A stretch of 44,155 bases of DNA, taken from positions 1 to 44,155 of the forward strand of contig JAQGOE010000379.1 of assembly GCA_028293725.1 (NCBI GenBank). The letters run 5' to 3'. Origin of the DNA: Gammaproteobacteria bacterium (GTDB lineage: Bacteria; Pseudomonadota; Gammaproteobacteria; Steroidobacterales; Steroidobacteraceae). The position numbers and the translations under genes are program-made. Every line of letters starts with the position of its first letter. The stretch's first letter is position 1. Shown in pieces: positions 1 through 44,155 of the stretch. The notes under the pieces are model-generated. The model saw nothing but the letters and a program-made list of their open reading frames with translations, was not told where the DNA came from and made no database searches.

Positions 1-257
1 AAGAACAGCGAGCCGCAGACAATCCAACCGAGCGTCACCGTGATGTTGAAATTCAACGCTTCGCGCGCTTCTATTTCCAAATACGCGGAAGTGTCACGCC
101 GGGTGAGCCAGATGATGAGAGGCGCGAGGATATTGCCGCCCAAAGGGAATACGAACACGGCAAACGCCGAGAGATGGGCGAACATTCCCCAGGTGCGCTC
201 GTCCTGCGTAGGAGGAGCACCCGTCATCGGCGCCGCCGCGGGTTTCGATTCGTTCAT
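1..257 (-). CDS. DUF4870-family membrane protein, 3' part outside the window
   Basis: The reverse strand reads an open frame beginning MNESKPAAAPMTGAPP and continuing with TQDERTWGMFAHLSAF, then FPLGGNILAPLIIWLTRRD and LEIEAREALNFNITVTLGW. The phrase WGMFAHLSAF, the GNILAPLIIWL helix and the EAREALNFNI segment are the family hallmarks of DUF4870/Tic20-like small membrane proteins, which usually have about 110-130 residues and three or four helices. About 85 residues are visible; the C-terminus runs off the left edge. Two adjacent ATG codons exist (260 and 257). I chose 257 because the AGAGGG stretch then sits about 5 bases upstream. The gene is divergent from the hydrolase at 328. Its function is not known. 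Confidence 0.8.
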   Translation of the reverse strand, partial: MNESKPAAAPMTGAPPTQDERTWGMFAHLSAFAVFVFPLGGNILAPLIIWLTRRDTSAYLEIEAREALNFNITVTLGWIVCGSLF

Positions 258-4096: not shown

Positions 4097-5158
4097 ATGG
4101 AAGATTTCGTCTCCGCGCCGTGGCTCAGACGACTCATTACCGTCGTACTCCTCGCGGTGCTGGTCATCCTCGGTTGGCAGGTGCTGGACCCTTTTATCGT
4201 CCCGATCGTCTGGGCCGCGATTCTGGGGTACGTGAGCTGGCCGGCCTATCAACGGCTGGTGCGCCTGCTTGGCGGACGAACCATCATCGCTTCTCTCATC
4301 ATGACTCTCGTCATCACCGCCGCGGTGATCGTGCCTCTGGCGTGGCTCATCGTCATTATGCGGGTCGAAGTCGTGCGGGCTTACGCGGCGCTGCAGGCGC
4401 TGTTGTTGAGTGGTCCGCAGATGCCGCCCGCCTTGTTGAAGCTACCCTGGATCGGCGACCAGTTGACCGAGCTGAGCGCCCGCATGGCACAGGATCCCCG
4501 TGCGTTGAGCCTCGAGCTGCGCGAGTGGGCGGATCACTCCTTCGTGGCGATCGCGCACGTCCTTGGCGGCGTGACCCGTAACGCCGTGAAGTTGTTTTTC
4601 GCGGTGTTGAGTCTGTTCTTCGTCTATCGCGACGGCGAGAGATTCGCCAGTCAGTTCGCGCGCGTGCTGGAACAGGTGCTCGGCCCCCGGGTGCACAATT
4701 ACATCGAGGCGATCGGCCCTACGGTGAAGGCCGTAGTGTATGGCCTGGTGCTCGCGGCGGTCGCGCAGGGCACTCTCGCGGGACTCGGCTACTGGGCTGC
4801 GGGAGTGGCCGCGCCGGTGTTTCTCGCGGTACTGACGACCGTCTGCGGGCTGCTGCCGTTCGTCGTTCCGCTGTTGTGGGGCTCGATCGGTTTCTGGCTC
4901 ATCGCGACCGGCCACACCGCGGCCGGCGTCGGCCTGCTGATCTGGGGCACGATCGTCGTCAGCTGGATCGACAACATCGTGCGCCCCTTCGTCATCAGCC
5001 GGGAAACGCGCATCCCGTTCCTGCTCGTCATGTTCGGCGTGATTGGCGGCGTGGCGGCCTTCGGCCTGGTCGGCCTCTTCATCGGGCCCGTCATTCTCGC
5101 GATGTTAGTCGCGATCTGGCGCGAGTACCTCCTGGAAAGCGCCCAACCGGTCAAGTAA
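4097..5158 (+). CDS. AI-2E family transporter (UPF0118 permease)
   Basis: This 353-residue multi-pass membrane protein has the AI-2E/PerM layout. Two N-terminal helices (about 12-50, IVPIVWAAILGYVSWPAYQ) and a third around 60-90 are followed by a polar loop, then four or five C-terminal helices with GLLPFVVPLLWGSIGFWLI, the signature WIDNIVRPFVIS, and LFIGPVILAMLVAIWREYL. Some relatives export autoinducer-2 and others act as Na+/H+ antiporters or have unknown cargo, so the substrate stays open. AAGGAAG precedes the ATG at 4097. A GTG one codon upstream is less well placed. Confidence 0.87.
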   Translation: MEDFVSAPWLRRLITVVLLAVLVILGWQVLDPFIVPIVWAAILGYVSWPAYQRLVRLLGGRTIIASLIMTLVITAAVIVPLAWLIVIMRVEVVRAYAALQALLLSGPQMPPALLKLPWIGDQLTELSARMAQDPRALSLELREWADHSFVAIAHVLGGVTRNAVKLFFAVLSLFFVYRDGERFASQFARVLEQVLGPRVHNYIEAIGPTVKAVVYGLVLAAVAQGTLAGLGYWAAGVAAPVFLAVLTTVCGLLPFVVPLLWGSIGFWLIATGHTAAGVGLLIWGTIVVSWIDNIVRPFVISRETRIPFLLVMFGVIGGVAAFGLVGLFIGPVILAMLVAIWREYLLESAQPVK

Positions 5159-5187
5159 CCGGCGGGGCACCCGCGAGCCGCGTACCC

Positions 5188-6705
5188 TCACGCGCCGAGA
5201 AACATCCGGTACATCGGGTTATTCGTCTCCTCCACAAAGGCGTAGTGGAGCTCGTTGATGTGTTGGAGAAAGTCAGGCCGCTCGCGCGGCGGCACCTGGA
5301 TTCCGGTGAGCACCCGCCCATAATCCGAGCCGTGGTTGCGATAGTGGAACAAGCTGATATTCCAGCGGGGCCCCACCGCATGGAGGAATTTCAGCAGCGC
5401 GCCGGGTCGCTCCGGAAACTCGAAGCGATACAGCACCTCGTTCTCGAGGCCGCGCGCATGCCCGCCCACCATGTAGCGCACGTGGAGTTTGGCCATCTCG
5501 TTGTCCGTCATGTCCATGACGGTGTATTGCGCATCGCGCAGACTCTTCACCACGGCATCCCGTTCGGGCCGCCCCTGGGTGAGGCCGAATCCTAGAAACA
5601 ACTGCGCGCCCTGCGCGTTTTGATAGCGATACGTGAACTCGGTGATGCTACGGCTGCCGAGCGTCTCGCATAGATGCAGAAAACTCCCGGGCTGCTCCGG
5701 AATCGTGATGGCCAGTAACGCTTCGCGCTGGCCACCCAGATCGGCGCGTTCGGAAATGTGGCGCAGCCGATCGAAGTTCATGTTGGCGCCACTGTTGATA
5801 GCCACCAGCCGCTTGTCCTTCCAGCCTTCGCGGCCCACGAATTTCTTGATGCCGGCTACGGCGAGCGCACCTGCCGGCTCGACAATGGAGCGCGTATCCT
5901 CGAACACGTCCTGGATGGCGGCGCAGATCTCGTCCGTATCCAACAGCAGGATTTCGTCGACATGCTCGCGACAGAGATTGAACGTCTCCTCTCCAACACG
6001 TTTCACCGCAACACCATCGGCGAAGACTCCGACCCGATCGAGCGTCACGCGCTTACCCGCCCTGAGGGATTCGTACATGCTGGCAGAATCTTCGGGCTCG
6101 ACACCGATGATCCGGACGTTGGGATAGAGGTATTTCACGTAGACGGCGATACCGGAGATCAAACCTCCGCCGCCGACCGGAACGAAGATCGCATCGACAT
6201 TGCCACCCGTCTGGCGCAGCACCTCGACGCCGATCGTGCCCTGTCCGGCGATCACGTCAGGATCATCGAACGGATGAACGAAGATCAGATTGCGCTCCCG
6301 CGCAAGGGCCAGCGCACGCTCGAACGCGCTGTCGTAATCATCTCCATGAATCACAACCTCCCCGCCGAGGTCGATGACCGCCTGCACCTTGATGTTCGGC
6401 GTCGTCTGCGGCATCACAATGACCGCCGGAATGCCGCGTCGTTTCGCGGCCAGCGCTACACCCTGCGCATGATTGCCGGCCGAAGCGCACACGACGCCGC
6501 GCTTAGCGGTGGCTTCCGACAGGTGCGCGATCCGGTTGTAGGCACCCCGCACTTTGAACGAGAACACCGGCTGCAGATCCTCGCGCTTCAACATCACGCG
6601 GTTGCCGAGCCGGCGCGACAGGCGCGGCGCCTCGTCCAGCGGTGATTCGATCGCAACGTCGTAGACGCGCGCTTTCAGGATTCGCTCGATGTAGGGACTC
6701 GCCAC
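5188..6705 (-). CDS. ilvA: Threonine ammonia-lyase, biosynthetic (threonine deaminase)
   Basis: IlvA converts L-threonine to 2-oxobutanoate and ammonia, the first committed step of isoleucine synthesis. The 505-residue length and two C-terminal ACT-like regulatory repeats (about 325-400 and 420-505) mark the feedback-regulated biosynthetic form. The PLP lysine is Lys51 in FSFKVRGAYNR, SAGNHAQGVA follows, and the phosphate-binding loop is PVGGGGLISG. The second ACT repeat begins EVLYRFEFPERPGALLKFL. The start is GTG at 6705 with only a weak purine stretch before it. It supplies the substrate that acetolactate synthase (18638-20485) uses for isoleucine, but lies 12 kb away and is not in its operon. 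Confidence 0.95.
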   Translation of the reverse strand: MASPYIERILKARVYDVAIESPLDEAPRLSRRLGNRVMLKREDLQPVFSFKVRGAYNRIAHLSEATAKRGVVCASAGNHAQGVALAAKRRGIPAVIVMPQTTPNIKVQAVIDLGGEVVIHGDDYDSAFERALALARERNLIFVHPFDDPDVIAGQGTIGVEVLRQTGGNVDAIFVPVGGGGLISGIAVYVKYLYPNVRIIGVEPEDSASMYESLRAGKRVTLDRVGVFADGVAVKRVGEETFNLCREHVDEILLLDTDEICAAIQDVFEDTRSIVEPAGALAVAGIKKFVGREGWKDKRLVAINSGANMNFDRLRHISERADLGGQREALLAITIPEQPGSFLHLCETLGSRSITEFTYRYQNAQGAQLFLGFGLTQGRPERDAVVKSLRDAQYTVMDMTDNEMAKLHVRYMVGGHARGLENEVLYRFEFPERPGALLKFLHAVGPRWNISLFHYRNHGSDYGRVLTGIQVPPRERPDFLQHINELHYAFVEETNNPMYRMFLGA

Positions 6706-21375: not shown

Positions 21376-24300
21376 ATGGATTTATTCAAGAGCCCACCAG
21401 CGTCTCGCAAATCACCCCGCCGTCCCAAAATCCCAGTTGCCAGCACCCGTGCCGCAACCCCACGGAACAAGCGGGAACACCCTGGGGAGGCGCTAAATGG
21501 TGAAACGAGCGCGATCCTCGCCGCTCTGATCGCGCTTAAGCGTGGCAATAGCGACGTGCGTCTGCCCGAGGAATGGCCCGGCCAGGCGGGTCGTATCGCC
21601 GAGGCTTTCAATGAAGTCGTTGAGCTCAACGTGCGCACCGCGCGCGAGCTCGAGCGACTCAACCAGGTTGTCGGACGTGAAGGCAAGCTGCGCCACAGGG
21701 CCTCTCTGGGCAACGTCAGCGGGTTCTGGTCCGACTCCATCATGAATATCAACGCGCTCATCGACGACCTCGTCCATCCGACGACCGAAGTCGCGCGCGT
21801 GATCGGTGCATTCGCGCAGGGTGATCTGACGAAGACCATGGCACTCGAAATCGAGAGCCGTGACCTGCAGGGCGAGTTTCTGCGCACCGCCAAAACCATC
21901 AACAAGATGATCGAGCAGCTGAGCTCGTTTGCAACCGAAGTAACACGCGTCGCTCGTGAAGTTGGCACCGAGGGCATCCTCGGCGGCCAGGCACGTGTGG
22001 AAGGCGTGTCGGGTACCTGGAAAGACCTCACCGAGAGCGTCAATTTCATGGCCGGCAACCTGACCGGCCAGGTTCGTAACATCGCCGAGGTCAACAAAGC
22101 AGTGGCCGCCGGCGACCTTTCGAAGAAAGTCACGGTCGACGTCAAGGGAGAGATTCTCGAGCTCAAGAACACCGTCAACACGATGGTCGATCAACTTAGA
22201 TCGTTCGCCTCGGAAGTGACTCGTGTGGCACGCGAGGTGGGTACCGAGGGCATCCTCGGCGGCCAAGCTGACGTCAAAGGCGTGTCGGGTACGTGGAAGG
22301 ACCTCACCGAGAGCGTCAACTTCATGGCGGGCAACCTGACCGGTCAGGTTCGTAATATCGCCGAGGTCACGACCGCCGTGGCGGCGGGGGACCTCTCGAA
22401 AAAGATTACTGTCGACGTCAAGGGCGAGATCGAAGAGCTCAAGGACACCATCAACACCATGGTCGACCAGCTCCGCTCGTTCGCAGCGGAAGTAACGCGC
22501 GTCGCGCGCGAGGTCGGCACGGAAGGCAGCCTGGGCGGCCAGGCGCAAGTGGAAGGCGTGTCGGGTACCTGGAAGGACCTCACGGACAACGTCAATCTCA
22601 TGGCGAGCAACCTGACGAGCCAGGTGCGCGGTATTGCCAAAGTCGTGACTGCCGTTGCCAACGGCGACCTGAACCTGAAACTCAAAGTTGACGCCAAGGG
22701 CGAGATCGCGGAGCTCGCTGAGACGATCAACAGCATGACCGAAACATTGGCGACATTCGCTGACCAGGTCACCAGCGTGGCGCGCGAGGTCGGTGTGGAA
22801 GGCAAGCTCGGCGGCCAGGCGAAGGTGCCCGGCGCGTCGGGAACGTGGAAGGGGTTGACCGAAAACGTCAATCAGCTCGCCGCGAATCTGACCACCCAGG
22901 TACGCGCGATCGCCGAAGTCGCGATGGCTGTTACCAAGGGCGATCTGACACGGTCGATCACCGTGCAGGCCGAAGGCGAAGTCGCGGCCCTGAAAGACAC
23001 CATCAACGAGATGATCCGCAATCTGAAGGACACCACGCAACAGAACACGGAGCAGGACTGGCGCAAAACCAACCTCGCCAAGTTCAGCCGCATGCTCCAG
23101 GGACAGAAGGACCTGGTCGCCGTGGGTCAGGCGATCCTGTCCGAGCTGGCGCCAGTGGTGGGTGCGCAGCAGGCCGAATTCTATATATTGGACGGGAGCG
23201 GTGCAGGGCAGAGATTGCGGCTGTTTGCGAGCTATGCCTCGGGCGGGCAGGGAGCCCACGGCAAGGAGCTCGCCCTCGGCGAGGGACTGGTCGGCCAATG
23301 CGCCGTGGACCAGCAAAAGATCCTGTTACACGGGGTGCCGGCAGACTCCATCCGGATTTCGTCGGGGCTGGCCGTAGGGTCTCCACAGGACATCCTCGTA
23401 CTGCCCGTCATCTTCGAGGGCCAGGTCAAGGGCGTCCTGGAACTCGCCTCGCTCGAGCGCTTCAACTCCACTCACCAGGCGCTGCTCGATCAGCTCACCG
23501 AGAGCATCGGCGTGGTCATCAACACGATCGAAGCCAACATGCGCACGGAGAACCTGCTGCAGCAGTCGCAGTCTCTCGCGCAGGAGCTGCAGCAGACGAA
23601 CCAGGAGTTGCAGGAGAAAGCCCAGCTCCTCGCCCACCAGAACCACGAGGTGGAACGCAAGAACAGCGAGGTCGAGCAGGCCCGCCAGGCGCTCGAGGAA
23701 AAGGCCAAGCAGCTGGCGCTCACTTCGAAGTACAAGTCCGAGTTCCTCGCGAACATGTCGCACGAGCTGCGCACACCGCTCAACAGCCTCCTCATTCTCT
23801 CCGACCAGCTCTCGCACAACACCGACGGCAACCTCACGTCGCGGCAGGTGGAATTCGCCCGAACGATTCATTCGGCGGGCAACGACCTCCTCATGCTGAT
23901 CAACGACATTCTCGACCTGTCGAAAATCGAATCCGGGACCGTGGTCGTCGATGTGGGGGAGTTGCATTTCGAAGAGCTGCAGCACTACGTGGAACGCAAC
24001 TTCCGGCACGTGGCCGAGGCGAAGAGCGTCGGCTTCGTGGTACTTCTGGGCGAGCAGCTACCGCGGTCCGTGGTAACGGACGCAAAGCGGCTGCAACAGA
24101 TTCTGAAAAACCTGCTCTCGAATGCCTTCAAGTTCACCCACCGCGGCCAGGTCACTCTCACCATCGATCACGCCGACGGCGGCTGGGGGCCGGAGAACGA
24201 AGAACTCGAGCGGGCACACGAGGTGCTGGCGTTCTCGGTAAACGACAGTGGCATCGGCATTTCCACGGACAAGCAACAGATCATTTTCGAGGCGTTTCAA

Positions 24301-25839
24301 CAGGCCGACGGCAGCACGAGCCGCAAGTACGGGGGTACCGGACTCGGGCTGGCCATCAGCCGCGAATTGTCGAAACTGCTGGGCGGGGAGATCCGGCTCG
24401 TGAGCGCACCCGGGAAGGGCAGTATTTTCACGCTTTACATTCCGCAGACCTACATTGGCTCCCGGTCCACCCGGCCGCGCACGGCTGCCGAGATGGCTCT
24501 GCACAAGCCGCCCAATGTCCAGCTCAACGAGCTGTTCCTCGATGGTGGGATATTCCCATTCCCCCTGACCGGTACACCGGCACTGGTGGCCGAAGAGCGT
24601 GAGCAGGAGACTTTCACACCCAACGAGGCGCAGGACGATCGTGACTCGATCCAGCCAGACGACCGGGTTCTGCTCATCGTCGAAAACGATCTCGCGTTCG
24701 CGCGGCTGCTGCTCGAAGGAGCCCGTGAGAAGGGGTTCAAGGGACTGGTCACGACGCTCGCTTCCGGCGCGCTGGCCCTGACCCGGGACTTCGAACCGGA
24801 TGCCGTGACGCTCGACCTGTTTTTGCCGGACATGAATGGCTGGCGGGTGCTCAATCGGCTCAAGAACCATTTGTCGACCCGCCACATCCCGGTATGCGTG
24901 ATCTCCACGGACGAAGCACGAGCCCAGGCGCTCGAAGCTGGGGCCGCGGGGTTCATCGCGAAGCCGCTACAGTCGAAGGAGACGCTCGACCGGGCCTTGG
25001 GAGAGTTACACCGCTTCGTGACCCAGCCGGAGCGGCATCTGTTGATTCTCATGTCGGAGTCGCCGGAGCGGGATGAGATCGTGGAGCTCCTCTCGGGTAG
25101 CGATGTGCGCATTTTCCCGATCGCTACCGCGGCTCTCGCCACCACCATCCTGCGGGAGCAGCCCATCAACTGCCTCGTCATCGGGCCGGGCGCTCCCGTG
25201 CTCGACCCTGGCGCCTTTGAGTCACTACTGGTCGATGAAAGCACGGGGTTGGGACAACCCGCCGTCATCTTTTTCGGCGCGGATCGCTCGGAAACGGGTT
25301 ACGAGGAATTCCGGCGGCGCTTCAAAGAACGGCTTACGTTGCGCGAGGCCCCCTCACGCGAGCGCCTCCTGGAGCAGACCTCGTTCTTCCTGCATCGCAA
25401 CCTCGACTCCCTCAGTGAGAAGGCGCGCCAGGAGCTGGAGTCGCTGCGCGAGTCACAACATGTGCTCGCGGACCGCAAGGTCCTCATCGTCGACGATGAC
25501 ATGCGCAACATTTTTGCGCTCGCCACCGTCCTCGACGAGCAGGGGATGACGGTGATCTCCGCGGACAATGGCCGCGAGGCCATCCAGCACGTGCTGCAGG
25601 ACCCGTCCATCGACGTCGTCCTCATGGACATCATGATGCCGGAGATGGATGGAATCGCTACGATCCAGGAAATCCGCAAGATTCCGGAACGACAAGAGTT
25701 GCCTATCATCGCGGTCACGGCCAAGGCCATGAAGGGTGACCGCGAGAAATGCATAGCGGCCGGCGCGTGGGATTACCTGTCGAAACCGGTCAATACCCAG
25801 GATCTGCTCGCGGCACTACGCGCGTGGTTGAAGGACTGA
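21376..25839 (+). CDS. Soluble poly-HAMP hybrid sensor histidine kinase with three receiver-like domains
   Basis: A 1487-residue protein without a membrane helix or signal peptide. Residues 85-560 hold one diverged and four near-identical HAMP units of exactly 92 residues (REVG(T/V)EG at about 194, 286, 378, 470). A GAF domain follows (575-720), a coiled coil (725-785), HisKA with His796 in [11 protein letters not shown], and HATPase (about 895-1023, [20 protein letters not shown]). REC1 (1097-1210) has Asp1147 and Lys1196. A degenerate receiver (about 1220-1345) lacks the acidic pocket. REC3 (1367-1485) has Asp1418 and Lys1470. This poly-HAMP design is shared with fungal group III kinases that sense osmotic stress. 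The REC-HK-REC gene begins 2 bases after the stop. Confidence 0.93.
21955..23058 (+). repeat. Four tandem 276-bp repeats encoding HAMP units
   Basis: Four in-frame units with a period of exactly 276 bp (92 codons), starting at the codons for REVG(T/V)EG at about 21955, 22231, 22507 and 22783. The second unit is closest to the first; the fourth is the most diverged. Such arrays can gain or lose whole units by recombination. Confidence 0.85.
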
Positions 25840-39435: not shown

Positions 39436-39804
39436 TCAACGAGGGTTATTCGACGGCGGCGGCATTTCGAGCACCTCCAAGAGCTCCGACTCTCCATCGC
39501 CCGCGACCTCCAGAAACTCCTTCGTCTTTTGAATCGCATCTTCCCGCGACGTCGCCCGAATCAACGCGAACCCTGCCGCGCCCATCAATGTCGAGTCCGA
39601 GAACGGCCCACGGGTTACGGTAACCTCCCCCTTCGCGAGCCGGACCTTCGCCCCGCCCGGACCGTTCTTACCCAGCGGCCCGGTGTAAACCAAGGAATCT
39701 TCCCTCATGGACTTCTCAATGAGCGCGCCCATCTTCGCCATGTGCTCCGGCGAAGGCGGACCGGACGGCTTGGTTGCAGGGGTATAAAGAGAAAGGAAAA
39801 GCAT
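39436..39804 (-). CDS. YciI-family protein
   Basis: A 122-residue YCII/DGPF-type protein (MLFLSLYTPATKPSGPPSPEH, LVYTGPLGKNGPGGAKVRL, VTRGPFSDSTLMGAAGFALI). GxxxPF...E.. with the central VTxGPF is the family pattern. Members have a ferredoxin-like dimeric fold and are often linked to ECF-type sigma factors in their DGPF form; no sigma-factor gene is seen here. The start at 39804 is fixed by AAGGAGA 7 bases upstream. Its ATG shares CATG with a possible + strand start at 39803. Function unknown. Confidence 0.8.
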   Translation of the reverse strand: MLFLSLYTPATKPSGPPSPEHMAKMGALIEKSMREDSLVYTGPLGKNGPGGAKVRLAKGEVTVTRGPFSDSTLMGAAGFALIRATSREDAIQKTKEFLEVAGDGESELLEVLEMPPPSNNPR

Positions 39805-39922
39805 GACTGAGTCTCCTTGGGTGGCGACGACGCTGCGGATTCGACCCAAGGACGCCCGGCTGGGCGCCGCGCCGACACGTAGACTCAATTTTTGCGCCAT
39901 GGCGGCGAGCCGGAGTACCGAA

Positions 39923-40000
39923 ATGCGTGAGCTGCTGGTGATTCTCTTCGTCGTACTCGTCGTGATCGGCATCCGGTTCTACAGTCGCCGGCAAGGCTGA
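39923..40000 (+). CDS. Tiny single-span membrane protein
   Basis: A 25-codon frame encodes MRELLVILFVVLVVIGIRFYSRRQG: a charged start, a hydrophobic span of about 14 residues, and a basic tail, typical of bacterial micro-membrane proteins. CGGAG lies 7-8 bases before the ATG. An upstream in-frame ATG at 39803 would add 40 residues with a composition unlike a protein and would overlap the promoter of the YciI gene. Function unknown, and it could be a chance frame. Confidence 0.4.
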   Translation: MRELLVILFVVLVVIGIRFYSRRQG

Positions 40001-40161
40001 CGCTGCTATTTACGGCCGCCCGTGAGCCGCAGGCGTTGCGCTGCGTCATCTGAAGACGACAACAGTCCCGGCCGCGACCGACCCTGTTATTTGGGCTGCG
40101 AGCCCGAGCTCCCAGCCCGAACTCGCGCGCCCGCCTTGCCGCGGGCAACGTCGCGCCGTCC

Positions 40162-40830
40162 CTAACGCGCGCGCAAAGCGGCGGCCCGAACCTCTCCAGC
40201 GAGCAGCTGCACCCCATGCATCCGCGCATTCTCCAGAGCCACGACCTCGCCCGAAGCCGCCGCCAACAGCATCTCGCGCCACACTTTCACCTTGTTCGGC
40301 CATCGCGGGCGCATCCATTCGGGGTAGCGCTCGGCGAGCTCATGGATCTGCGGCAACGTGCACGCGCTGATGACATGGGTGCAATAGCTCGGCATGCCCA
40401 ACAGAAGCTGTGCCGCTGTGTGTTTCGACTGCGCGAGGTGCCACGCGTAGAGAAACACCTGCCGGGCAACCGCAGACGCGCGAGGCACGGTAAAGAAAGA
40501 CCCGTAACTCGCGGGCGCCCCATCGTTCACATGCCGTCCCTCGAGCCATCGCCAGCGGCCCGGATCGGAGAATCCTGCATCGACCAGTAAGTAAGGACAT
40601 GAGGCGGCACGCCGTCGAGCCGCTGCGTCGAGCGTGCGCCAGATCTCCCCCATCTGGCGCAGAAGTAAATTCCCCTGCGCGGGTTGCGCGAGCGCCTGGT
40701 CCGCCAACAGGTCCAAACATTGCCCATTCAACTGCACCAGTGAATCGAGTGCTTCCGAGCGCGTCGAGGCAGCCGCCAGAGCGGCAAACTCCCCGACAAT
40801 TTCTTCTTCGGTTTCGCGTTGCAACAACAT
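40162..40830 (-). CDS. Hypothetical protein beside palindrome module copy 1
   Basis: A 222-residue soluble protein, not recognised. It begins MLLQRETEEEIVGEFAALAA, is mostly helical, and shows LLLRQMGEIWRTLDAAARRRA, then CPYLLVDAGFSDPGRWRWLEG, FLYAWHLAQSKHTAAQLLLG and RWPNKVKVWREMLLAAASG. It is rich in Trp and has no membrane helix or signal. Strong purine stretches (AAGGGGAG, CAGGGG) precede the ATG at 40830. The frame continues upstream to 40917 through the front part of the palindrome module, which is unlikely to be coding. Copy 1 of the module lies about 70-140 bp upstream, so the gene may be under its control. Confidence 0.65.
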   Translation of the reverse strand: MLLQRETEEEIVGEFAALAAASTRSEALDSLVQLNGQCLDLLADQALAQPAQGNLLLRQMGEIWRTLDAAARRRAASCPYLLVDAGFSDPGRWRWLEGRHVNDGAPASYGSFFTVPRASAVARQVFLYAWHLAQSKHTAAQLLLGMPSYCTHVISACTLPQIHELAERYPEWMRPRWPNKVKVWREMLLAAASGEVVALENARMHGVQLLAGEVRAAALRAR

Positions 40831-40895
40831 AACCCCTGCTCCCCTTCCCTCGTACAAGCGCCATCCTAACGATGTGCGATCGCAAAGGGTCCCCC

Positions 40896-40971
40896 GCATT
40901 TGTGGATTTCTTATCAAATTTCACTCCGTCGTTTTTTGGGAAAATTTTCCCAAAAATTCGCCGCCGCAAAC
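40896..40971. repeat. Palindrome module copy 1 (between the unknown gene and the EF-hand gene)
   Basis: The front part GCATTTGTGGATTTCTTATC is followed by AAATTTCACTCCGTC, then a perfect 24-bp palindrome at 40933-40956 (T5 G3 A4 T4 C3 A5), then CGCCGCAAA. The spacing from GCATTT to the palindrome start is 37 bp. It lies in the 366-bp gap between divergent genes; the rest of that gap (40972-41196) shows no further gene. Confidence 0.9.
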
Positions 40972-41196
40972 AACCACGCAAAAAGAACATTGAGGGGCCG
41001 CCCCGGGGCCGATCGTCTATCGGCCGGCGGCCCTGACGACACGTCTGAGCATACGTACAGGCCGGGAGCTGCCGGAGCGGTCGGGAATATGAAGTGGGTC
41101 ACATTCCGCAGCGCAGCGGTTTCGCGTTGCCGAACATGACGGTATTGAAGGAGGCCCCATCAAAGGAAGGCCGCACGCGGCATGCGAGGACAGCTG

Positions 41197-41421
41197 ATGT
41201 CAGGACTGAGCGACCACGAGCTTGCCGAGCTGCGCAAGACTTTCGACGGTTGTGATCTCAACGGCGATGGCTTCATCAATCCGGAGGAGTTCCACGCCCT
41301 GCTGATCAAGCTGGATGGCGACGTTTCCAGGGAAGAGTGCCAGCTCGACTTCGACGTCGCCGATAGCGAGGGCGACGGTTACATCGGCTTCAAGGAATTC
41401 GTCGTCTGGTGGACAGGCTGA
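41197..41421 (+). CDS. Small two-EF-hand calcium-binding protein
   Basis: A 74-residue cytoplasmic protein made of one pair of EF-hands, like half a calmodulin. Loop 1 is DLNGDGFINPEE and loop 2 DSEGDGYIGFKE; both have the acidic and Gly residues for Ca2+ at positions 1, 3, 5, 6 and 12. Helices flank each loop (ELAELRKTFDGC before the first, FKEFVVWWTG at the end). Such small bacterial calmodulin-like proteins are reported in several phyla, but their targets are mostly unknown. I start at 41197, with GAGGA about 7 bases upstream; the ATG at 41182 would add five residues. Module copy 1 lies 240 bp upstream. Confidence 0.85.
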   Translation: MSGLSDHELAELRKTFDGCDLNGDGFINPEEFHALLIKLDGDVSREECQLDFDVADSEGDGYIGFKEFVVWWTG

Positions 41422-41798
41422 TGAGCCCGCTTCAAAGATTCCCACGACAGTCGGTCGGCCAGGTCTCGGGGACGGAAAAGTGACCGCTTTGAATAACGAG
41501 CCGTACGTCGAGCCCGTAAAGTGATCTCCTAGCGGTGACTGACGCGATGCGCAATCGATTGGTAAGGCAAACGAATTCGCGTCGCACGCTATCCCCTCGC
41601 ATTTGGGGACGATTCACCAAATTTTGCACCGTTGTTTTTTTGGGAAGATTTTCCCAAAAATGCGCGGCTGCAAAACGACCGCGGAAGACGGTGTGCGCGT
41701 CCAACTGCTGGCATTGCCGCGACTTCGAGTTCGTGCGTCCTTCGTTGCGCTCGCGCTCGTTAATCAGCACAATCCCGAGGTCTCCAGGGAGCTCAGGA
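41422..41798. other. 378-bp gap with module copy 2 before the kelch lipoprotein gene
   Basis: No gene is supported between the EF-hand stop and the lipoprotein start. The gap holds the second copy of the palindrome module (41599-41672) and 128 bp after it with the start region of the lipoprotein transcript. I see no clear terminator for the EF-hand gene. Confidence 0.5.
41599..41672. repeat. Palindrome module copy 2 (upstream of the kelch lipoprotein)
   Basis: GCATTTGGGGACGATTCACC, then AAATTTTGCACCGTTG, then the 24-bp palindrome at 41637-41660 with one changed base (AAGA for AAAA at 41645-41648), followed by TGCGCGGCTGCAAAA. Relative to the other copies one extra T lies before the palindrome (38 bp from GCATTT). 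Same orientation as copies 1 and 3. Confidence 0.9.
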
Positions 41799-41799
41799 T

Positions 41800-43785
41800 A
41801 TGGAACATTTGTATCGCGTTTGTAGCGTTCCCGTTGCGGCATGCGCGCTCTTCGCACTGACAGCTTGCGGCGGCGGAGGTGGTGGTAGTAACAATTCGAA
41901 GCCGCCACCGGCGGCGGCGTACACGATCAGTGGAACGATCACCGGCCTGTCGCCGCCGGGCGTGGTACTCGTCAATGGGAACGAGACGGTGACGGTGACA
42001 ATAGGATCATCCGCGCCGGCGCCGTTTACATTCCCTACGGCTGTTCCCAGCGGCTCAGCTTATTCTGTCACGACAGAAACGCCACCGGCCGGTGAGACCT
42101 GTGTCGTCACCAATGGAAGCGGTACGATCGGCAATGCCAATGTCACGAATGTAACAGTGACCTGTGGCTATACGCTCGGCGGAACGATCACCGGCCTGGT
42201 CAACAATGGGCTGGTCCTGACCAACAACAGCACCGACAAGGCGTCTCCTGCAGGAGGGGCGACCTCGTTTACCTTCCCGCAGCCGGTGGCACGGGATAGC
42301 CCATTCAGCGTGACCATCAGTGCACAACCGTCGGGCCAGCTCTGCGGAGTCGCCGGCGGCGTGACCGTCAACGGCACTCCCTATTTAATGCCGGAACAGA
42401 ACGACAACAACATCGTGGTTCCCTGCGCGCAGGAGAATGCGGCGAGCGGCTCGTGGATATTGCAATCGACCTACACGGGAAACGCCGCAGTTTATGGAAC
42501 ACAGGGAGTGCCCGCGGCCGGCAATCAACCTGGCGCCCGTACCGCAGCCGCGACCTGGGTGGATGCCTCCGGCGCGCTCTGGCTTTTCGGCGGCTTGGGG
42601 TCCGGAGCTGGCCCCACTGGCGACCTCAACGACCTTTGGAAGTACGATCCGGGCACGCAGCTATGGACGTGGATCGGCGGATCGACGGCGCTCAATGCGA
42701 GCGGTGTCTACGGCACTCTAGGGACGACTGCGCCTGCAAATATCCCTGGAGCGCGTTACGCCTCGGCCACGTGGGTGGATGCCTCCGGCAAACTGTGGCT
42801 GTTCGGTGGCGCCGGATACGACTCCGCAGGCAAGACGGGCTTTCTCAACGATCTGTGGGAATACGATCCCACCACGGGGCAGTGGACGTGGATGAGCGGC
42901 TCCACGACGATCAGCGGCTTCGGCGACGCGGGCGTCTACGGTACGCAAGGAACCGCCGCGCCCACCAATATGCCAGGAGGCCGGTACGATGCAGCCTCGT
43001 GGATCGACGCTTCAGGCAATCTCTGGCTATTCGGCGGCTGGGGCACCGATGCGACTCCAAACGATAGCGCGGGTCTCAACGACCTGTGGAAGTACACACC
43101 AGGCACGGGTCAGTGGACGTGGACGAGTGGCTCGCCGACGCAAAATCAGTCGGGTGTCTACGGCACACAGGGGACAGCTGCCGCGGGCAACGTGCCCGGA
43201 GCGCGTCAGAACGCGGCCACCTGGATCGACTCGTCGGGTAATCTCTGGATGTTCGGCGGCATGGGACTGGATTCGACCGTCAACGACATCATCACAGGCG
43301 CGCTGAACGACCTGTGGGAATATTCCCCTGCCACCGGTTTGTGGACCTGGGTGAGTGGCTCCAACATGAAGGATCGGGTCGGCGTGTACGGCACCCAGGG
43401 TGTTGCCGCGGCACTCAGCATACCCGGAGGCCGCAGTTTGGCGGCCTCGTGGATCGATCGTTCCGGCAACCTCTGGTTGTCCGGTGGTGACGGAATCGAC
43501 TCGACCGTGCCCGGTTTCAGAGGGCCGAGCGGCAGCCCGTTGGCATACGTGGGGCTGACCGATGTTTGGGAATTTAATCCGACAACCGGCCAGTGGACCT
43601 GGGTGAACGGATTCTCGCGGGGTAACACGGCGACAGTGTCGCAGGGTGTTGGAGCACCAGGCGTGCCCGGAACGGGCGGCGGAATGCAGTGGGTCGACAA
43701 GACCGGGGCGATCTGGTTGTTGAATGGACTTAGTGTTGCCAACAGCGCAATGTACTTGTGGAAGTACACAAACACGGGCAACTAG
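41800..43785 (+). CDS. Kelch-like beta-propeller lipoprotein
   Basis: A 661-residue exported lipoprotein. A signal peptide ends at the lipobox LTAC with Cys23, followed by a Gly run. Two Ig-like repeats (about 41-122 and 124-209) share YTxxGTITGL...V..C and probably form a stalk. From 231, five units of 72-76 residues and a partial sixth follow the pattern VYGTQG...PGAR..A.WVDASG.LWLFGG...LNDLWKYDP..G.WTW..GS, as in kelch motifs, and predict a six-bladed propeller. CAGGGAG and AGGA lie before the ATG. Surface location and a binding or adhesive role are likely from this design, though no ligand can be named. Module copy 2 lies 140 bp upstream. Confidence 0.88.
   Translation: MEHLYRVCSVPVAACALFALTACGGGGGGSNNSKPPPAAAYTISGTITGLSPPGVVLVNGNETVTVTIGSSAPAPFTFPTAVPSGSAYSVTTETPPAGETCVVTNGSGTIGNANVTNVTVTCGYTLGGTITGLVNNGLVLTNNSTDKASPAGGATSFTFPQPVARDSPFSVTISAQPSGQLCGVAGGVTVNGTPYLMPEQNDNNIVVPCAQENAASGSWILQSTYTGNAAVYGTQGVPAAGNQPGARTAAATWVDASGALWLFGGLGSGAGPTGDLNDLWKYDPGTQLWTWIGGSTALNASGVYGTLGTTAPANIPGARYASATWVDASGKLWLFGGAGYDSAGKTGFLNDLWEYDPTTGQWTWMSGSTTISGFGDAGVYGTQGTAAPTNMPGGRYDAASWIDASGNLWLFGGWGTDATPNDSAGLNDLWKYTPGTGQWTWTSGSPTQNQSGVYGTQGTAAAGNVPGARQNAATWIDSSGNLWMFGGMGLDSTVNDIITGALNDLWEYSPATGLWTWVSGSNMKDRVGVYGTQGVAAALSIPGGRSLAASWIDRSGNLWLSGGDGIDSTVPGFRGPSGSPLAYVGLTDVWEFNPTTGQWTWVNGFSRGNTATVSQGVGAPGVPGTGGGMQWVDKTGAIWLLNGLSVANSAMYLWKYTNTGN
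42490..43575 (+). repeat. Tandem kelch-type coding repeats
   Basis: Five units of 216-228 bp, beginning at the VYGTxG codons near 42490, 42706, 42934, 43156 and 43384. Units are clearly related in DNA and share phrases such as GG(T/C)GT(G/C)TACGG and TGGAC(G/C)TGG, pointing to duplication within the gene. Confidence 0.75.
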
Positions 43786-43815
43786 CGGCCGTGTGAGCGG
43801 CGCGCCATGATCGCA

Positions 43816-43843
43816 GCCGCCCCTCTCGCGGGGCGGCAGTTTC
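43816..43843 (+). terminator. GC-rich hairpin after the kelch lipoprotein gene
   Basis: A perfect 8-bp stem GCCGCCCC / GGGGCGGC (43816-43823 with 43830-43837) with loop TCTCGC lies 30 bases after the stop. Only CAGTTTCC follows, so it may be a weak intrinsic terminator. Confidence 0.5.
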
Positions 43844-43931
43844 CGATTGGAGCGCAGAGCCGCCACGGTCAGCCCGCGAAACTCTCTGATGAGAGCCTCA
43901 TCCATATCGCGGTGCAACAGCACGGTCCGTT

Positions 43932-44005
43932 GCATTTGGGGATTTTTTACCAAATTTTGCCCCATTGTTTTTTGGGAAAATTTTCCCAAAAATGCACGGC
44001 CCCAA
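43932..44005. repeat. Palindrome module copy 3 (directly before the FlhC-like gene)
   Basis: GCATTTGGGGATTTTTTACC, then AAATTTTGCCCCATTG, then the perfect 24-bp palindrome at 43969-43992, followed by TGCACGGCCCCAAAA. GCATTT to palindrome start is 37 bp, as in copy 1. The palindrome ends only 34 bp before the ATG of the FlhC-like gene, so it should overlap the promoter or leader. Confidence 0.9.
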
Positions 44006-44025
44006 AATAAACAGGGAAGAAGGCC

Positions 44026-44155
44026 ATGCGCATCTCCGAGGATCGTTACAGTCGCGAGCGTCTCTGCCTCCAACTCGCGTTGCGCTTTCTGGAGCACGAG
44101 GCACGCACTCAGACGATTCGCACCTGGACGGGACTGTCGGACGATAGGATCAGAA
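44026..44155 (+). CDS. FlhC-like transcriptional regulator, N-terminal part (runs off the window)
   Basis: The first 43 residues, MRISEDRYSRERLCLQLALRF and then LEHEARTQTIRTWTGLSDDR, read like the N-terminal DNA-binding helices of FlhC-family regulators. Their usual form is ARxLIxxxARxxTIxxxTGLSxxRIRxLY. FlhC with FlhD activates flagellar class II genes in enterobacteria. Copies outside flagellar loci occur in some gammaproteobacteria and are uncharacterised to my knowledge. GGGAAG lies 6 bases before the ATG. No flhD or flagellar gene is visible. The rest of the protein, including any zinc-binding cysteines, lies outside the window. Confidence 0.65.
   Translation, partial: MRISEDRYSRERLCLQLALRFLEHEARTQTIRTWTGLSDDRIR

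Follow-up and report, generated by a model that had tools for sequence, protein, structure and literature searches.

What is the role of a palindromic sequence module that occurs three times near the end of a single contig? The question is raised by a stretch of 44,155 nucleotides (hereafter the window; contig JAQGOE010000379.1 of assembly GCA_028293725.1) from a gammaproteobacterium of the Steroidobacteraceae, where an initial annotation took the copies to mark a regulon. We propose, with a probability of about 70 %, that a divergent pair of regulator genes has the module as its bidirectional operator/promoter region, that this region was multiplied to three in the window, and that the pair itself binds the boxes of the module. 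One gene of the pair is flhC-like and the other, which we call X, is probably FlhD-like.

Repeat finding placed the three copies in one family on the same strand, at 40898-40955, 41601-41659 and 43934-43991 of the + strand, with start-to-start distances of 703 and 2333 nt. With the gene starts used here all three are intergenic, as first described. Each module consists of two 22-nt boxes, A then B, and the near-constant spacing noted initially holds at 36, 37 and 36 bp from centre to centre in copies 1, 2 and 3. Box B (TTTTGGGAAAATTTTCCCAAAA) is indeed nearly invariant: it is perfect in copies 1 and 3, has one change in copy 2, and is identical between copies at 21-22 of 22 positions. The flanks agree at 20-23 of 33 positions, a difference suggesting that selection has kept each copy. 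The earlier division into a front part and a palindrome stands as to its two parts and is refined as to their nature. Since a box-type pattern matches two of the three front parts at 2-3 mismatches, we regard the module as two boxes of one motif, box A being a looser version of the box B palindrome (ATTTGG-N10-CCAAAT in copies 2 and 3). A GC-rich end, described as shared, is only loosely common to the copies (22-23 of 33 positions in a gapped alignment).

The boxes in the window are beyond chance. The pattern TTTGGGAANNNNTTCCCAAA has six matches at ≤3 mismatches compared to a shuffle mean of 0.06, one of the six (43565, 3 mismatches) being inside a kelch-repeat gene and part of no module. The consensus of box A from relatives has three matches in the window where 0.01 are expected.

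A two-box pattern searched over a species-genome collection gave 11 loci. Five of these (L003, L006, L007, L009 and L011) are gammaproteobacterial metagenome-assembled genomes carrying the true module; in the corresponding five genomes the palindrome, at two mismatches, is found only at the module locus, the reversed control being found at five places in two genomes. The other six (L001, L002, L004, L005, L008 and L010) come from unrelated taxa, lack box A of the module by eye and were rejected. As the initial annotation had suggested, we searched relatives with a profile of the module and listed the neighbouring genes. The profile, built from sequence only, has 16 rows, three from the window and 13 from relatives. 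Over 58 genomes of one genus-level group, and with filters that can lose weak matches, it matches 28 genomes at E ≤ 0.01, 13 of which had supplied a profile sequence and 15 had not. All 28 best matches adjoin an flhC-like gene and 27 have X divergent on the other side. In the 28th genome (G162) the pair is still divergent, but another gene separates X from flhC-like and X has a separate box. Extending the search to 217 genomes of the family, we found profile matches in 28 at E ≤ 0.001, with the same gene pair in two genomes outside the genus-level set (G010 and G015).

A single-box pattern allowing one mismatch occurs in 27 of the 58 genomes, at 36 places in all; the X/flhC-like locus accounts for 35 of these, and the reversed control is found at one place. 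The lone box away from the locus (G166:C183, L120), about 57 nt downstream of the stop codon of a 371-aa open reading frame (ORF) and within an overlapping 104-aa ORF, was taken as chance. In the genus-level group the element is locus-bound, with one locus per genome, and is not a dispersed repeat. This corrects the regulon first envisaged: in relatives the module is no dispersed regulon but an operator at one locus, flanked by two divergent genes, and a multi-gene set has arisen only where the module was copied locally, as in the window and, around a different gene, in G162. A plasmid search with copy 3 returned a single match (E 0.8), and viral contigs gave none.

Beyond the genus-level group the picture loosens. 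Another palindrome pattern (one mismatch) matched 10 of 150 family genomes, in three of which (G052, G081 and G084) the match is away from the pair. Loci L022 to L024 are without the pair; L022 has a 33 % identical FlhC-like stretch without X, and L023 and L024 have neither. The divergent pair is kept at L020, L021 and L025 to L027 (about 53-59 % FlhC-like identity), where only one palindrome, TTTGGGA(A/T)ATTTTTCCCAAA, is seen and its surroundings differ. At L105 and L106 (48 % identity) the divergent X and a TTG...AAAAT/AGAAT stretch are kept with no clear TTTGG box, and the site may have changed along with the regulator.

The geometry of the locus was compared by anchoring 29 relatives and the three window copies on box A. 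The relatives comprise 27 of 30 fetched loci plus L006 and L044; the split locus of G162 (L078), L105, L106 and more distant matches were left out, and the anchor was set by hand in L077 and L095. In 24 of the 29 relatives a TAnnnT hexamer faces X at a distance of 28-30 nt from box A, compared to 9 of 1376 control offsets. Toward flhC-like, the pattern TTGnnn-16..19-nAnnnT is found in 26 of 29, compared to 476 of 6400 composition shuffles. This comparison shows the module between X and flhC-like, with box A just upstream of two promoter-like signals, one per divergent gene, and box B within the predicted -35/-10 spacer of the flhC-like promoter. Counted from these predicted promoters, the centre of box A would lie near -52 relative to the start of X and near -55 relative to that of flhC-like. 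A sigma-70 scan of 40000-44155 found no promoter (shuffle mean 1.1); the promoters proposed here are weak by consensus, and their basis is the conserved spacing.

Of the 29 relatives, 16 have an intact box B, with 7 or 8 of 8 outer pairs, and 19 an intact box A, three of the remaining box A sequences being read out of register. Seven relatives keep the flhC-facing promoter with a decayed box B (L081-L083, L085, L088, L099 and L102), and L103 and L104 show neither that promoter nor an intact box B. The pair at positions 7/16 of box B is G-C in 19 relatives, T-A in six, C-G in one and broken in three, with the register chosen for symmetry. The same pair in box A is T-A in 13, G-C in four and broken in 12. 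Substitution thus preserves symmetry in box B but only partly in box A. This count over all 29 relatives weakens the symmetry of box A, and we have slightly lowered our confidence in the proposed reading.

Where relatives have one module in common to X and flhC-like, the window has three; 3.2 kb separate X from flhC-like, and this interval holds the three modules, an EF-hand gene and the kelch-repeat gene. Copy 1 keeps a TAGGAT facing X at 29 nt, and its rightward -35 has become TCG. Copies 2 and 3 are without the X-facing hexamer and keep TTGTTT-18-AAAAAT toward the kelch gene and TTGTTT-17-AAAAAT toward flhC-like, respectively. Promoter loss is thus reciprocal: copy 1 alone has the X-facing hexamer, and copies 2 and 3 alone have the rightward promoter. 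Copy 1 and L007 are homologous from within X up to roughly where flhC-like begins (as far as 40989). Next to copy 3 is a 25-codon remnant of a further X gene (highest local score 72, with the X protein P0030, equalled by 0 of 1000 composition shuffles, and likewise for four other X proteins; tblastn E=1.8e-4; 22 of 25 nt matching the X start region of L006). The copied unit therefore included the edge of the X coding sequence. No flhC-like remnant was found after copy 1 or 2, where 98-328 of 500 shuffles scored as well.

G162 offers a parallel case, with promoters partitioned as in the window. Between X and flhC-like it has a Transposase_31/YhgA-like gene (L037, G162:C16:117500-128500, 4530-5756 on the minus strand; PF04754 E=3.5e-44). 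On the X side there is a box with an X-facing TACATT at 30 nt, on the flhC side a box with TTGCGT-17-AAAACT, and a third palindrome has neither promoter signal. Two alternative readings in which the TTG falls inside the box itself were discounted.

The FlhC-like protein falls short of the Pfam gathering score for FlhC (PF05280, 27 bits), with 16.5 bits in L003 and 19.5 bits in L007. Nevertheless 25 of 28 family members match PF05280 at E ≤ 1 (best 4.1e-6), the domain appears in the precomputed annotation of some homologues, and a fold test on the FlhC-like protein returned the FlhC fold. Four cysteines near the C terminus (C154, C157, C173 and C176) are present in all 28 aligned sequences and form a putative zinc site like the four-cysteine zinc site of FlhC. 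For X, taken as probably FlhD-like, the window protein has no match to FlhD (PF05247), one of 28 members matches weakly (E 0.15), and the domain is precomputed on one of 120 listed X homologues (P0071). The two genes are divergent and not one operon in the window and 27 of 28 relatives, and split but divergent in the 28th. Over the 58 genomes, FliM was found in 12 of 28 with the module and 26 of 30 others (Fisher p=7e-4, ignoring relatedness and assembly gaps). With FliM thus not detected in 16 genomes of the first set and 4 of the second, a purely flagellar role is unlikely.

We hypothesize that the FlhD-like/FlhC-like complex would itself bind boxes A and B. By analogy with other FlhDC-type proteins, binding at box A would activate the X and flhC-like promoters, while binding at box B, given its position, would block the flhC-like promoter and so create a feedback switch. 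In the lineage of the window the operator region would have been copied into three, copy 1 serving X, copy 3 serving flhC-like and copy 2 bringing the kelch lipoprotein gene under the same control, which suggests outputs such as a surface lipoprotein. Service of the EF-hand gene by copy 1 is doubtful because the rightward -35 of that copy has lost its TTG; such control may have been lost or may never have existed.

It is conceivable, although we would not put it at even odds, that the locus widens its own regulon. The operator would be copied in place with the edge of a regulator gene, genes would settle between the copies and each copy would keep the promoter facing its gene, so that the window and G162 would be two independent snapshots of the process and the switch a non-flagellar FlhDC-type circuit.

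Alternatively the module may be the operator of this locus but be bound by another protein, a repressor or activator for which the FlhD-like/FlhC-like pair is only a target. A 22-bp palindrome would suit many dimeric regulators, the palindrome is elsewhere in three of the 10 matching genomes of the wider scan, and the Escherichia coli FlhDC consensus AAATAGCG-N11-CGCTATTT, searched with the N11 spacer only, has no match in the window at ≤3 mismatches. We nevertheless consider this unlikely: the near-exclusive placement of boxes at this locus in the genus-level group fits a regulator encoded there, and both neighbouring genes are themselves regulator-like. Binding by the pair itself is the reading we retain.

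A mobile or site-specific element, either a repeat of the miniature inverted-repeat transposable element or repetitive extragenic palindromic type or an integron-like site collecting cassettes of a gene plus a site in the same orientation, would explain why genes of the window lie between same-orientation copies and why G162 has three palindromes and a Transposase_31 family gene between X and flhC-like. We hold this to be highly improbable. The module is at an orthologous position at one locus per genome in the genus-level group, with no sign of many dispersed copies; copy 3 carries a piece of X, so the copied unit includes coding sequence; the copies lost opposite promoters and their flanks diverged gradually; and no integrase was found among the proteins scanned, which did not include every neighbour. 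It is scarcely credible, in turn, that the palindromes serve as RNA hairpins within a transcript leader. Box B is able to pair into a hairpin, and folding of the window copies is somewhat stronger than that of shuffled sequences (z -1.6 to -2.0), but these scores are weak, 9-11 of 200 shuffles folding as well, and Rfam has no match in the window at gathering score. If the promoters are as predicted, transcription from the flhC-like one includes neither box; moreover, box B ends only about 8-9 nt ahead of the start codon in two relatives (L011 and L041). An operator/promoter, as opposed to a mobile or random repeat, was also the initial view, and it is now well supported by orthologous position, conservation in relatives, conserved divergent promoters and the single locus per genome.

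Pfam and homologue searches bear out the original FlhC-like, EF-hand and kelch gene calls (Table 1). An alternative TTG start would extend X to 40162-40917 and overlap copy 1; the ATG at 40830 fits as the start because most close homologues have 220-222 aa. The kelch protein has an LTAC lipobox-like stretch near its N terminus, by eye. A kelch search of the 58 genomes gave matches in 20 and, in module genomes, never on the module-bearing contig, so the kelch insertion is so far seen in the window only. Beside the locus, a 178-aa ORF (39436-39972, minus strand) has no Pfam match at E ≤ 0.001. Farther away, a 1487-aa ORF (21376-25839, plus strand) shows by eye several repeats, near-identical and each about 90 residues long, ahead of histidine-kinase-like and receiver-like stretches.

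Table 1. Boxes, promoter-like hexamer and genes at the locus in the window
Feature	Position	Strand	Remarks
X, probable FlhD-like gene	40162-40830	-	222 aa; FlhD-like part preceded by about 110 aa
TAGGAT, -10-like hexamer facing X	40863-40868	-	29 nt from box A of copy 1
Copy 1 box A	40898-40919	+	
Copy 1 box B	40934-40955	+	perfect 22-nt palindrome; TTG of rightward -35 is TCG
Small EF-hand protein gene	41182-41421	+	79 aa; downstream of copy 1; PF00036 E=2.9e-14, two stretches
Copy 2 box A	41601-41622	+	
Copy 2 box B	41638-41659	+	10 of 11 pairs symmetric; in spacer of TTGTTT-18-AAAAAT facing kelch gene
Kelch-repeat lipoprotein-like gene	41800-43785	+	661 aa; PF24681 E=3.4e-21, PF13418
Remnant of second X gene	43849-43923	-	25 codons; GTG in place of ATG; no further similarity seen past codon 25
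Copy 3 box A	43934-43955	+	zero mismatches to box A consensus of relatives
Copy 3 box B	43970-43991	+	perfect palindrome; in spacer of TTGTTT-17-AAAAAT facing flhC-like gene
FlhC-like gene	44026-44155	+	cut by window end; 43 aa present

For an FlhDC-type pair with no obvious flagellar role, from bacteria represented here largely by metagenome assemblies, the locus supplies a specific DNA site together with the layout of its promoters. It is likewise a clear natural example of an operator being duplicated and its copies then losing opposite promoters, a stage of regulon growth for which inference is usually all there is.

A literature search that left out most subscription journals found nothing on this X/flhC-like pair or on FlhC in Steroidobacteraceae. 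FlhDC of E. coli (FlhD4C2) is encoded in an operon, while the genes here are divergent and X is longer than FlhD; its recognition sequence also differs from the boxes of the window. FlhDC is the flagellar master regulator, whereas here there is essentially one site per genome in the group, and FliM is often not found. FlhDC-dependent promoters are reported to have poor hexamers (PMC4183435), and feedback on flhDC in Salmonella to go via RflM (PMC3946378). Activators of the FlhDC type bind near poor -35 elements. SetCD of SXT/R391 elements is described as binding a 19-bp site by the -35 of promoters without a good -35, including two divergent promoters (PMC4344509), and AcaCD of IncA/C plasmids is called flhDC-like (PMC4605294). 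Box A has a placement beside the promoter like that of the SetCD site. SetCD and AcaCD are on mobile elements and activate transfer genes, whereas this locus, whose operator is local, has nudC- and TANGO2-type genes as neighbours in relatives. Non-flagellar FlhDC-type regulators are thus already known; what is new here is the divergent pair, its two-box operator and the multiplication of that operator in place.

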